From the NCBI GenBank assembly GCA_945860455.1, contig CAMAQX010000003.1, positions 1 to 37,955 of the forward strand: 37,955 bases of DNA, given 5' to 3'. The position numbers and the translations under genes are program-made. How positions within the stretch are numbered: the stretch's first letter is position 1; every line of letters begins with the position of its first letter. Positions 11,930-16,619 of this stretch are shown in pieces. Under the pieces are notes generated by a model that saw only the letters and a program-made list of their open reading frames with translations, did no database searches and was not told the origin of the DNA. This stretch comes from Lishizhenia tianjinensis (GTDB taxonomy: Bacteria; Bacteroidota; Bacteroidia; Flavobacteriales_D; Crocinitomicaceae).

Positions 11930-12313
11930 ATGGGTCAAGAAAAAAACAAATATTCTGATAGTGAATTAGTTGAATTCAAAGAATTAATTAATGCTAAGCT
12001 TAAAGAAGCACAAGAACATTACTCGTTGTTAATTGCGTCTTTGTCACATAGTGATGACCATGGTACAGACGATACCGGTAGAACTTTTAATATGATGGAA
12101 GATGGTTCTGAAACATTGTCAAGAGAGGAAGTTGCGCAATTGGCAGCGCGACAAGAAAAATTTATTCAAAATTTACAAAATGCATTAATACGAATTGAAA
12201 ACAAGACGTATGGTGTTTGTCGTGTAACAGGAAAGTTAATTCCTAAGGAAAGACTACGTTTGGTTCCTCACGCAACGATGGGTGTTGATGCGAAAAACGC
12301 ACAAAACAAATAA
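11930..12313 (+). CDS. DksA/TraR-family protein
   Basis: Coiled-coil N-terminus plus QNALIRIENKTYGVCRVTGKLIPKERLRLVPHAT, typical of Bacteroidota TraR/DksA-family proteins. Confidence 0.88.
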   Translation: MGQEKNKYSDSELVEFKELINAKLKEAQEHYSLLIASLSHSDDHGTDDTGRTFNMMEDGSETLSREEVAQLAARQEKFIQNLQNALIRIENKTYGVCRVTGKLIPKERLRLVPHATMGVDAKNAQNK

Positions 12314-12961
12314 ATGGTGAAGAAACAATTATTGATTGTTGGGTGGATTATCTTGGCGGTTTTATTGGTTGATCAACTTGTTAAAATTTATATCAAAACA
12401 CATTTTTTTCCCGGCGAAACAGTTTCTGTTTTCGGAGATTGGTTTGTGCTGGAATACATTGAAAATCCGGGAATGGCATTTGGAACAACCTTTGGATCCA
12501 AGGTCTGGCATAAATTGGCGTTAAGTGTATTTAGAATTGCAGCAATTACTGGGATTTCCATTTATTTGTATAATCAAGCAAAAAAAGGTGCGAAAACAGA
12601 GTTTTTAGTGGCCATTGGATTGGTGTTAGCAGGTGCCACAGGAAATTTAATAGATTCCCTGTTTTATGATTTATACTTTGCTTTTGATCCTTGTATGCCT
12701 TACAATGGAATGGAGGGTTCTGGTGTTTTCGCTGATTGCTTTGGTTTTAAAAGGGAGGTGCGAAACTCCGGGTTTTTAATGGGGAATGTTGTTGATATGT
12801 TTAAATTTCAAGCGTTTTGGCCTATTTGGGTTCCTGTATTGGGAGGAAAAGAAGTGTTTCCTGCTATATGGAATGTGGCTGATGCGGTTATAACCTCTGG
12901 AGTAATAATGATTTTTCTTCGACAAAGAAGTTATTTTAACGAAAAAAAGCAGTCCATTTAA
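12314..12961 (+). CDS. lspA: Lipoprotein signal peptidase
   Basis: VDQLVKIYIK, EYIENPGMAFG, GATGNLIDSLFY, GNVVDMFKF, FPAIWNVADAVIT catalytic Asp motifs. Confidence 0.95.
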   Translation: MVKKQLLIVGWIILAVLLVDQLVKIYIKTHFFPGETVSVFGDWFVLEYIENPGMAFGTTFGSKVWHKLALSVFRIAAITGISIYLYNQAKKGAKTEFLVAIGLVLAGATGNLIDSLFYDLYFAFDPCMPYNGMEGSGVFADCFGFKREVRNSGFLMGNVVDMFKFQAFWPIWVPVLGGKEVFPAIWNVADAVITSGVIMIFLRQRSYFNEKKQSI

Positions 12962-12975
12962 AAGACTGCTTTTTT
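12943..12975. terminator. Bidirectional intrinsic terminator between convergent lspA and ssb array
   Basis: Perfect 12-bp inverted repeat AAAAAAGCAGTC / GACTGCTTTTTT around a 9-nt loop. A/T tracts serve both directions. Confidence 0.8.
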
Positions 12976-12993: not shown

Positions 12994-13320
12994 TTATAAC
13001 CCGATTATCTGCCTCACTTCAACTTCTGTGATGCTTTTTTTAACGCCTGTTTGCGTTAAATAGGAGCGATTCACCAACCGACCATGTATGGCTACTTTTT
13101 TACCCTTTTCGCTATATTTTTCAATAAATTCAGCCATGTTTCCCCAAGCAAAAACGCGGTGCCATTCTACGTCTTTTCTGAATTTTCCGCTATTACTTCT
13201 ATACGTATTGTCTGTTGCTAAATTAAATCGGGCAATGCTTTTACCATTTTCAAAACGTGTTATTTGAGCGGATGAGCCAATGTTGCCAATGAGTGTGATG
13301 TGATTTCTTACTGTAGTCAT
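12994..13320 (-). CDS. Single-stranded DNA-binding protein (small SSB paralog 3)
   Basis: OB-fold SSB pattern NHITLIGNIGSSAQITRFENGKSIARFNLATDNTY...EWHRVFAWGNMAEFIEKYSEKGKKVAIHGRLVNRSY. Confidence 0.9.
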   Translation of the reverse strand: MTTVRNHITLIGNIGSSAQITRFENGKSIARFNLATDNTYRSNSGKFRKDVEWHRVFAWGNMAEFIEKYSEKGKKVAIHGRLVNRSYLTQTGVKKSITEVEVRQIIGL

Positions 13321-13334
13321 GTGTGTGATTTTTA

Positions 13335-13655
13335 TTAATTATTTGGGATTAAGGTTAAGTCGTTGATTTCTATTTCTGATATCAATTTAGGAACACCGCC
13401 TGCTTTATAAAAACGGCTAACGATCTTACCCTCGATTGCTAAGTTCGTTCCTTTTAATTCTAACTCTTCAAGAACTTTAACCCATCTACCCCAAGCTGTT
13501 AGTGTATGCCAGGTGTCCCTGGATTTGGATTTGCCCTTTTCGTCGAAATAGGTTTCTTTGGTTGACATAGTGAACTTTACTAATTTTTTTCCATTATCAA
13601 GCTCTATAAATTGTGCGGCAGATCGCGCTTTTCCTATTAGATTTACGTAATTCAT
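13335..13655 (-). CDS. Single-stranded DNA-binding protein-like (small SSB paralog 2)
   Basis: NYVNLIGKARSAAQFIELDNGKKLVKFTMSTKETY...DTWHTLTAWGRWVKVLEELELKGTNLAIEGKIVSRFY, the same OB-fold pattern but divergent. Confidence 0.85.
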   Translation of the reverse strand: MNYVNLIGKARSAAQFIELDNGKKLVKFTMSTKETYFDEKGKSKSRDTWHTLTAWGRWVKVLEELELKGTNLAIEGKIVSRFYKAGGVPKLISEIEINDLTLIPNN

Positions 13656-13666
13656 TTTTGCTAGGG

Positions 13667-14044
13667 TTATTTATTATTCATTTTTTGAGTTGTTTTTTCT
13701 AAAGGTTTTTCATTGGTTGTCTTTAATACCAAGAATTCTGTTGCCTCTACGAAGGTGACAAATCGTTTTTCACCATTTTTTGTTTCATAGTTTTGATTAA
13801 CTAATCGTCCCTCTAGTACGATTTCTTGCCCCTTTTGAAGCGTCTTTTGCATTCGTTGAGCTACTTTACCCCAGGCATTTATTGTATGCCATTGTGTTTG
13901 TTCCTGCCATACGCCATTTAACTTGTATGACTCATTTGTTGCAACCGTAAAACGTGCTAGCGTTTTTCCTGTTTCAAATGTTACTACTTCTGGATTTGCG
14001 CCCAGCCTACCGATCAAACTCACTTTGTTTCTTAGTGCATTCAT
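13667..14044 (-). CDS. Single-stranded DNA-binding protein (small SSB paralog 1)
   Basis: NKVSLIGRLGANPEVVTFETGKTLARFTVATNESY...QWHTINAWGKVAQRMQKTLQKGQEIVLEGRLVNQNYETKNGEKR. Confidence 0.92.
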   Translation of the reverse strand: MNALRNKVSLIGRLGANPEVVTFETGKTLARFTVATNESYKLNGVWQEQTQWHTINAWGKVAQRMQKTLQKGQEIVLEGRLVNQNYETKNGEKRFVTFVEATEFLVLKTTNEKPLEKTTQKMNNK

Positions 14045-14327
14045 GTTTGTAAAAATTAAGGTTTGAAAAAATTGTTGTGTCCTTTTTCGTTTTGGATTCG
14101 AATTGACTCTGCAAAGTTTCCATCAACTCAAAACTTTATTCGGTTGATAGTCATTTATTGTCGATTATTATTCGTTTGTAATTGTTTTAAATTGATTATG
14201 TATTTGTAAATGAGAGAAATAACAAAAAAAATAAATGGTTTGAAACATGTTAAAAAGAGCAAGATTTATTTCTTGATAGCTAAAAAAAACACTTATTCGA
14301 AGTGTAAAAAATATCCTATTCATTTTG

Positions 14328-14335
14328 TATCTTTA
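14328..14335 (+). promoter_or_regulatory. Candidate -7 box for maeB (TATCTTTA)
   Basis: 7/8 match to TAnnTTTG, 19 nt upstream of the likely maeB ATG (14355). Confidence 0.35.
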
Positions 14336-14354
14336 CCACCCACAAAAAAACGGA

Positions 14355-16619
14355 ATGTCAAAAGTTAGAAAACAAGAAGCGCTGGATTACCATTCAATGG
14401 GTAAACCAGGAAAAATAGAAGTAGTTCCTACAAAACCTTATGCCTCTCAACGAGATTTATCACTTGCTTATTCACCCGGTGTGGCAGAACCTTGTTTAAA
14501 AATAGCCGAAAACAAAGAGGATGTGTATAAATACACGAGTAAGTCAAACTTGGTTGCGGTAATCACCAATGGAACTGCTGTTTTAGGTTTGGGTGATATT
14601 GGCCCTGAGGCATCAAAACCTGTAATGGAGGGAAAGGGACTGTTGTTTAAAATTTTTGCTGATATTGATGTTTTCGATATTGAAATCGACGCAAGGGATC
14701 CTGAATTATTTATCCAAACGGTAAAGGCGATTGCTCCTACTTTTGGAGGAATTAATTTGGAAGACATAAAGGCACCTGAAGCATTTGAAATAGAAAGACG
14801 ATTAAAGGAGGAATTAGATATTCCGATTATGCATGATGATCAACACGGCACGGCTATTATTTCTTCTGCAGCACTTTTAAATGCACTAGAATTAGCGGGT
14901 AAAAAAATTGATGATGTTAAAATTGTTGTTTCTGGTGCGGGAGCCTCTGCTGTGTCATGTGTAAAACTATATCTTTCTCTAGGCGCTAAATTATCCAACA
15001 TTTTCATGTTCGATTCTAAAGGGCTACTGTCTAAAAAGCGAACTAACTTAGATGATTACAAATTGTTTTTTGCCTCACATGAAACGGTTGTTTCGTTTGA
15101 AGACGCATTCAAAGACGCCGATGTTTTTCTAGGATTGTCTCGTGCTGGCTTAGTGTCAAAGGACATGATTGCCGCAATGGCAAACGACCCAATTGTATTT
15201 GCTTTAGCCAATCCTGAACCTGAAATTTCGTACAAAGACGCCACGTCTGTTCGGAAAGATATTATTTTAGCAACAGGCCGCTCTGACCACCCTAATCAGG
15301 TAAATAATGTGCTTGGTTTTCCATTTATATTTAGAGGTGCTTTAGACGTTCGAGCAACAACAATTAATGAGGAAATGAAACTTGCAGCTGTTAAAGCAAT
15401 AGCTGCTCTGGCAAAGGAAACGATTCCGGAAGAAGTAATTCAGGCTTATGGAGAAAAGAACATTTCTTTTGGTCGTGAACAAATCATTCCAAAGCCATTA
15501 GATCCGCGTTTGATTCATTATGTGGCCCCGGCGGTTGCAAAAGCAGCGATGGATTCTGGTGTAGCAAAAAATCCAATTTTAGATTGGGATGAATATGAGT
15601 CAATTTTAAAAAGCCGTTTAGGTCTCGACAATAAACTCATACGTAATATCACCACAAAAGCACAATCAAACCCTAAAAAAGTCGTTTACGCCGAAGGGGA
15701 CAACGTTAAAACATTGAAGGCTGCACAAGTAGCGTTTGAAGAAGGGTGTGCGTTTCCTATTTTACTCGGCAAGAAAAAACGCATTGAAGCACTGATTGAA
15801 GAATATGGTATTGATTTACCAGAAAAAACAATTGTAGATCCGAAATCGGAAGAAGAAGAAACAAGACGCATTGTTTATGGCAAAGCTTTTTTCGAAAAAC
15901 GAAAACGAAAAGGATTCACCGAATTTGAAGCGCTTCAAATCATGAGAGAGCGCAATTACTTTGGCTCTATGATGGTAGATCAAGGAGATGCCGACGCAAT
16001 GATTACGGGGACTACAAGAAGTTATCGATCATCTATAAAGCCAGCACTACAAACAATAGGGTTGCAAAAAGACGTGAATTTGGTGGCGGGAATGTATATT
16101 CTTATTACGAAAAAGGGTCCGTTATTTTTAGCCGACACAACCGTAAATTTAAATCCATCGGCAGAGCAAATTGCGGAAATAACAGTAAATGTTGCAAAAA
16201 CAGTTCGTAAATTAAAAATTACTCCGCGAATAGCATTGTTAAGTTATTCCAACTTTGGGTCTTCTCCTGGCGATGATTCTGAAAAAATGGCCAATGCAGT
16301 TCAGATTTTACACGAAAATCACCCAACTTTAATTGTGGACGGAGAAATGCAAGCCAATTTTGCTTTGAATAAAGAAATGATGAATGAAAAGTTTTCGTTT
16401 TCGCAATTAGCAAATAAACAAGTAAACACCTTGATTTTCCCTAATTTATCGGCGGGAAATATAGCATATAAGCTTTTACAACAAACAACAGATGCGGATG
16501 CAATAGGACCCATTTTAATTGGATTAAAGAAACCGATTCATATTCTTCAGCTGGGTAGTTCGGTTCGAGAAATAGTGAACATGGTTAAAGTAGCCGTAAT
16601 TGACGCTCAAAACAAATAA
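14355..16619 (+). CDS. maeB: NADP-dependent malic enzyme fused to phosphotransacetylase-like domain
   Basis: LSLAYSPGVAEPCL, DIPIMHDDQHGTAII, VVSGAGASAVSC; C-terminal PTA-like domain (YAEGDNVKTLKAAQVAFEEG, MITGTTRSYRSSIKPALQ). ORF track begins 10 codons upstream; the first ATG is MSKVRKQEALDYH. Confidence 0.95.
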   Translation: MSKVRKQEALDYHSMGKPGKIEVVPTKPYASQRDLSLAYSPGVAEPCLKIAENKEDVYKYTSKSNLVAVITNGTAVLGLGDIGPEASKPVMEGKGLLFKIFADIDVFDIEIDARDPELFIQTVKAIAPTFGGINLEDIKAPEAFEIERRLKEELDIPIMHDDQHGTAIISSAALLNALELAGKKIDDVKIVVSGAGASAVSCVKLYLSLGAKLSNIFMFDSKGLLSKKRTNLDDYKLFFASHETVVSFEDAFKDADVFLGLSRAGLVSKDMIAAMANDPIVFALANPEPEISYKDATSVRKDIILATGRSDHPNQVNNVLGFPFIFRGALDVRATTINEEMKLAAVKAIAALAKETIPEEVIQAYGEKNISFGREQIIPKPLDPRLIHYVAPAVAKAAMDSGVAKNPILDWDEYESILKSRLGLDNKLIRNITTKAQSNPKKVVYAEGDNVKTLKAAQVAFEEGCAFPILLGKKKRIEALIEEYGIDLPEKTIVDPKSEEEETRRIVYGKAFFEKRKRKGFTEFEALQIMRERNYFGSMMVDQGDADAMITGTTRSYRSSIKPALQTIGLQKDVNLVAGMYILITKKGPLFLADTTVNLNPSAEQIAEITVNVAKTVRKLKITPRIALLSYSNFGSSPGDDSEKMANAVQILHENHPTLIVDGEMQANFALNKEMMNEKFSFSQLANKQVNTLIFPNLSAGNIAYKLLQQTTDADAIGPILIGLKKPIHILQLGSSVREIVNMVKVAVIDAQNK

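Follow-up and report, generated by a model that had tools for sequence, protein, structure and literature searches.

Introduction

The closest described relatives of the proteins reported here are the E. coli-type housekeeping SSB (PF00436, TIGR00621), with which they have in common the OB fold, the DNA-contact aromatic positions and the W54-H55 motif, and SsbB of Bacillus subtilis and Streptococcus pneumoniae, a short extra SSB which likewise stands beside a housekeeping one and has its own promoter. Pneumococcal SsbB itself carries a tip (EEEELPF), and without this acidic tip it keeps its function as an ssDNA reservoir (PMC3128108). In other Flavobacteriales, a 102-aa SSB devoid of the usual last residues has been noticed and set aside (PMC3991886).

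The array described below differs from the housekeeping SSB in having neither linker nor acidic tip, in being basic and not acidic, in comprising three co-transcribed paralogs and in possessing a dedicated operator. It differs from SsbB in consisting of three diverged genes instead of one, none of which encodes a tip, and in being co-regulated, in relatives, with genes for a Y-recombinase, RecQ and an ORF6N protein and not, as far as seen, with dprA, recA or comEC. Other Flavobacteriales have a short SSB without a tail that is related to ssbA, the first gene of the array, and in many families the operator and spacing before it are those of the array; by contrast with the A-B-C trio, however, these bacteria have a single tail-less SSB or independent small tandem copies. 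Literature searches confined to open-access papers turned up no account of the array or its regulon. To our knowledge, the Bacteroidota have no well-described competence or DNA-damage regulon, and a searchable conserved operator that connects SSBs lacking the tip with RecQ and a site-specific recombinase is a concrete entry point: the repeat could serve as bait for the regulator, and a single promoter could reveal the inducing condition. As a natural experiment, the trio further allows one to ask what an SSB does once the tail that recruits proteins is gone, and why three divergent copies persist.

Three tip-less SSB paralogs form one operon

The window, i.e. the whole stretch of 37,955 nucleotides that was analysed, is a contig from the metagenome-assembled genome of a member of the Crocinitomicaceae (Flavobacteriales); the assembly is 87% complete. 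Between lspA and maeB, its minus strand carries ssbA (13667..14044; 125 aa; PF00436 E-value 3.4e-27), the first gene of the operon, ssbB (13335..13655; 106 aa; 3.5e-13), the most divergent paralog, made of the OB fold alone, and ssbC (12994..13320; 108 aa; 2.7e-27), whose product ends exactly in ...TEVEVRQIIGL. Gaps of 11 nt (ssbA/ssbB) and 14 nt (ssbB/ssbC) separate the genes, and both the open reading frames and the PF00436 matches agree with an earlier note on this DNA, which had reported three consecutive minus-strand SSB genes with these gaps. A terminator-like hairpin on the minus strand (AGCAGTC..GACTGCT and a T run, 12942..12970) closes the operon, convergent with lspA. It should be noted that this hairpin was read from the sequence and is not listed by the terminator scan, probably because its loop exceeds 8 nt. 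Neither the hairpin nor the promoter and operator described below had been mentioned in the earlier note. No Rfam element was found in the ssb operon.

Two other genes of the window deserve mention. The gene at 14325-16619, listed with a TTG start and divergent from the ssb operon, encodes a malic enzyme that carries a fused phosphate acetyl/butyryl transferase domain. At 11930-12313 lies a DksA/TraR-like gene whose zinc-finger region matches part of PF01258 only (29 bits); it keeps a single cysteine and its product may therefore not bind zinc.

The three proteins end at or just beyond the OB fold

The proteins score 95.3, 50 and 95 bits with PF00436, compared to a gathering threshold of 26; the ssbB product, at 46 bits, does not reach the 53.95 bits required by TIGR00621. 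Pairwise identity among A, B and C is 27-37%, which bears out the substantial divergence claimed earlier, and each of them is 27-38% identical to a housekeeping SSB. The acidic C-terminal tip is absent from all three, which stop at or just beyond the OB fold, with 12-25 (A), 6-17 (B) and 6-8 (C) residues beyond the last OB strand; inspection of the C-termini thus confirmed that no DDxPF-type tip is present, as had been proposed. In the C group, the terminus TEVEVRQIIGL varies little. The A, B and C groups are basic, with net charges of +1 to +10, whereas those of the housekeeping SSBs of the group range from -7 to 0.

For B, AlphaFold predicted the monomer with confidence (pLDDT 92.8) as an OB fold that resembles solved SSB structures (Salinibacter 5odn, TM 0.83). 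The DNA-contact aromatics, at the positions of E. coli W40, W54, F60 and W88, are found in nearly all A and in most B and C proteins; a few B and C proteins no longer have W54, and position 40 is variable in C. In one lineage (G001, G004, G007 and G025; loci L046, L047, L048 and L055), ssbB is fast-evolving and the W54-equivalent DNA-contact residue is lost; there, to judge from the sequence, B may have changed function.

Four PF00436 matches are present in the window's own assembly, namely ssbA, ssbB, ssbC and a 149-aa paralog on another contig (G000:C221, L003:866-1315) with an acidic C-terminus, ...DESEF. Many relatives have similar weak PF00436 matches, 144-185 aa long and in most cases a single one in each genome, and five SSB homologs are often present in family members. 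The housekeeping SSB, ending in DDLPF or similar, is a separate gene carried by nearly all of the 36 genus relatives, and its absence here is therefore most likely a mere matter of the incomplete assembly. Separate ortholog groups and a separate acidic-tip gene in the relatives support the earlier view of a specialised array distinct from the housekeeping SSB, and argue against any array gene being the only SSB of its genome.

The A-B-C array is old and conserved in Crocinitomicaceae

Within the genus, the loci comprise A-B-C in 15 cases (window included), A-B in 12 and A alone in two, in which the sequence continues downstream. A tree built from 119 proteins resolved one clade for each of the three paralogs, with 100% bootstrap and 98-99% SH-aLRT support. 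When other genera were added, the family-wide tree retained these clades, with 32 rows in A (100/95), 31 in B (100/100) and 29 in C (99/91), and the A-B-C order was found in at least nine genera (g1, g21, g22, g24, g25, g26, g27, g28 and g32); g23, g29 and g30 have two or three A-like copies in place of A-B-C. These results show three old ortholog groups whose order is kept, and not recent lineage-specific duplicates in an unconserved array. The ssbA type is the form common to other families of the order, as a single copy, and the B and C types were seen in Crocinitomicaceae only. Comparison with near relatives gave dN/dS values of 0.09-0.10 for ssbA, 0.00-0.02 for ssbB and 0.02-0.05 for ssbC, indicating strong purifying selection on all three.

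The flanks of the array vary among sublineages: lspA/maeB in the window, creD, enoyl-CoA hydratase, or recombinase/DUF4476 elsewhere. It is therefore the cassette that is conserved and not its genomic site. The best plasmid match is 44% identical, far under the chromosomal orthologs. A second replicon was considered for a 16-kb contig of G017 carrying a second A-B copy, and was rejected: both this copy and the chromosomal one have the DUF4476 flank, so the contig looks like a second allele and not a plasmid.

A conserved operator precedes the tail-less ssb genes

Alignment of the regions upstream of ssbA revealed four ~11-bp phased repeats followed by a Bacteroidota-type -7 element, TTTG. In the window, the repeats lie within ACAAACGAATAATAATCGACAATAAATGACTATCAACCGAATAAA (14135..14179, minus strand) and the -7 element, AACTTTG, at 14112..14118 on the same strand, 67 nt from the ssbA start; if the last repeat (ACCG at 14144) is counted from its initial base, the final G of the -7 element is the 33rd nucleotide. 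Other families of the order have the same layout before their tail-less ssb genes, where the spacing between repeats and -7 element recurs, but not before the housekeeping ssb. With a leave-one-out matrix, most ssb promoters scored 27-56 bits (3-17 bits in three distant families), compared to a maximum of 4.4 among 349 other genes.

A sequence-only model built from 21 ssb promoters, R1, matched the window at 14107-14182 (E 5.4e-17) and recovered ssb promoters outside its training set in three genomes (G052, G056 and G058). R1 matches were obtained in 66 of the 150 genomes of the order (E<=1e-3), mostly one in each, and at all 24 loci first inspected an SSB gene came next. A second model, R2, whose training included five recombinase/ORF6N sites, matched in 101 of the 110 family genomes; most single matches behind these two counts were taken as ssb promoters by assumption. 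The core-repeat pattern AAACGNNTANNAAACGNNTA, allowing one mismatch, had matched no better than a reversed control, and the full operator-plus--7 model was therefore used instead.

In family f13 (L117, L124 and L249), the SSB behind the operator carries an acidic tip, from which it follows that operator and tail loss are separable. A small Zn-ribbon gene (GRADKKFC..YCRN type) occurs near the operator in some genomes: it is beside the SSB in these three f13 loci, and in G124 (L274) between an IntI-like recombinase and the operator.

LytTR sites are 9-bp direct repeats, 11-13 bp apart, and the LytTR family includes competence regulators (PMC6193735). In the operator, where a repeat occurs every ~11 bp, pairs two turns apart fit this spacing, and the repeats may be LytTR sites. 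Their bases agree only partly with the LytTR consensus.

The operator is also found before recombination genes in relatives

Besides ssb genes, R1 matched before DNA-binding genes of the ORF6N-domain type (in G002, G015 and G036) and before IntI/XerA-like tyrosine recombinases (in G049, in G075 and G128 of another family, and in G178). Among the second R2 matches with E<1e-4, second ssb arrays aside, seven of the 11 precede a recombinase, two RecQ and two an ORF6N gene. RecQ (TIGR01389, 709 bits) lies behind the operator in genus g28 only (L299 and L308). No sensible target was found for the weaker second R2 matches (L305, L311 and L312; E 1e-4 to 8e-4) or for other weak R1 sites; the weak R1 sites of G003:C20 lie beside CRISPR/Cas9 sequence.

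Since R2 had been trained with recombinase/ORF6N sites, the E-values it gives to these two classes are no independent evidence, whereas the RecQ sites and the scores of a matrix made from ssb promoters only are independent of this training. That matrix gave 16.5-39.1 bits for the recombinase sites, 25.9-29.9 for RecQ and 8.9-19.6 for ORF6N, against a 99th percentile of 6.9 bits in 366 other genes. The top background gene (34.9 bits) is an open reading frame over the G065 promoter match, probably an ssb locus in the wrong reading frame; the next two scored 12.7 and 10.4 bits, so that the weakest ORF6N site (8.9) is not distinguishable on its own. In the promoters of all three partner classes, TTTG stands 32-34 nt from the last repeat.

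Partner genes and arrays are also physically joined. One operon has the order ssbA-ssbB-ORF6N-recombinase (L051) and another ssbA-ORF6N-recombinase (L062); ORF6N-recombinase operons occur at L292 and L293, and the recombinase is divergent from the ssbA array, across the operator, at L041, L042, L049 and L057. Operators and operons common to recombination genes thus back, in relatives, the recombination role that had been suggested for the array. It should be noted that relatives supply most of this evidence: in the genome to which the window belongs, an operator was detectable at the array only and the recombinase is a remnant (C33). Only some lineages have the operator before the partner genes, and it is missing from the recombinases of G003, G038, G055 and G058.

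The partner recombinase scores above the cut-off of NF040815 and matches TIGR02249 over most of its length, but as two separate stretches and under the cut-off (191-233 vs 265 bits). In L310 (G192), the operator-bearing IntI-like recombinase gene is seemingly interrupted by an IS3-type transposase, and in L129 (G049) the recombinase gene is broken by an in-frame stop or frameshift.

Possible functions of the array

We consider it probable that the array is an inducible operon, part of a DNA-recombination regulon of Flavobacteriales, and that its three products are specialised in coating ssDNA. More tentatively, but as a serious possibility, one regulator acting on the four ~11-bp repeats may control the tip-less SSBs, the IntI/XerA-like recombinase, RecQ and the ORF6N protein, a set that would capture and integrate single-stranded DNA. 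A candidate regulator would bind the phased repeats and activate the ssb operon from the -7 promoter, and the same operator would drive the recombinase, RecQ or ORF6N gene in various relatives. The tip-less SSBs, perhaps with a division of labour among A, B and C, would coat and protect ssDNA that is taken up or exposed in recombination. Without acidic tips they would not recruit the partners of the housekeeping SSB, and the coated DNA would stay free for the co-regulated recombinase and helicase; the ORF6N protein would also act on it. The likeliest final purpose appears to be DNA uptake and integration, followed by DNA repair. The array is real, old and probably regulated, and there is a good chance that this accessory SSB will lead to a recombination regulon not described before.

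It is possible, although it falls short of our expectation, that these are competence-type SSBs storing ssDNA from natural transformation, as SsbB does in Bacillus and pneumococcus. That SSBs without a tip accompany a housekeeping SSB, have a promoter to themselves and are co-regulated with recombination genes is compatible with such a role, as are the reservoir function of tip-less SsbB (PMC3128108), the resemblance to LytTR sites of repeats lying on one DNA face every two turns (PMC6193735) and the natural competence of Riemerella, another member of the Flavobacteriales (PMC6533540). However, natural competence of Crocinitomicaceae itself is an assumption, and dprA does not co-vary with the array, being present everywhere, with or without it. 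Moreover, none of the opened operator matches lies before dprA, recA or comEC, and the regulon is therefore neither a classical competence nor a classical SOS regulon.

A response to DNA damage or replication stress, in which the array and RecQ would provide extra coating when ssDNA accumulates, is more doubtful. RecQ is under the same operator in g28 and an operator-bearing ORF6N gene is located two genes away from recN, but RecQ has the operator in that one genus only, and recA, lexA-like and umuDC genes are absent among the sites seen.

A single SSB tetramer of mixed A, B and C subunits is a further and rather unlikely reading. The fixed order of the three genes, the short distance or the overlap between A and B, their co-conservation over nine genera and the invariant residues specific to each clade would suit a hetero-oligomer; an obligate A/B/C complex is nevertheless unlikely, because some lineages keep A-B or A only and related families of the order have a single copy. 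Finally, recent neutral tandem duplicates or leftovers of a phage or mobile element, which varying flanks and the tyrosine recombinase adjoining some arrays might recall, are already contradicted by old, separate ortholog groups under purifying selection, and a phage-related role, as the earlier note had envisaged, is opposed by a closest phage match of 32% identity and by the scanned viral contigs, none of which encodes a relative of C.

Other small genes were observed around particular arrays. A PemK/MazF-like toxin gene (L040, L044 and L045) or a short AbrB/MazE-like gene (L236 and L241) lies downstream of some, and near others (L049, L050 and L057; f36) there are genes for small secreted proteins that consist of VDYESRAD/YENQAD repeats.
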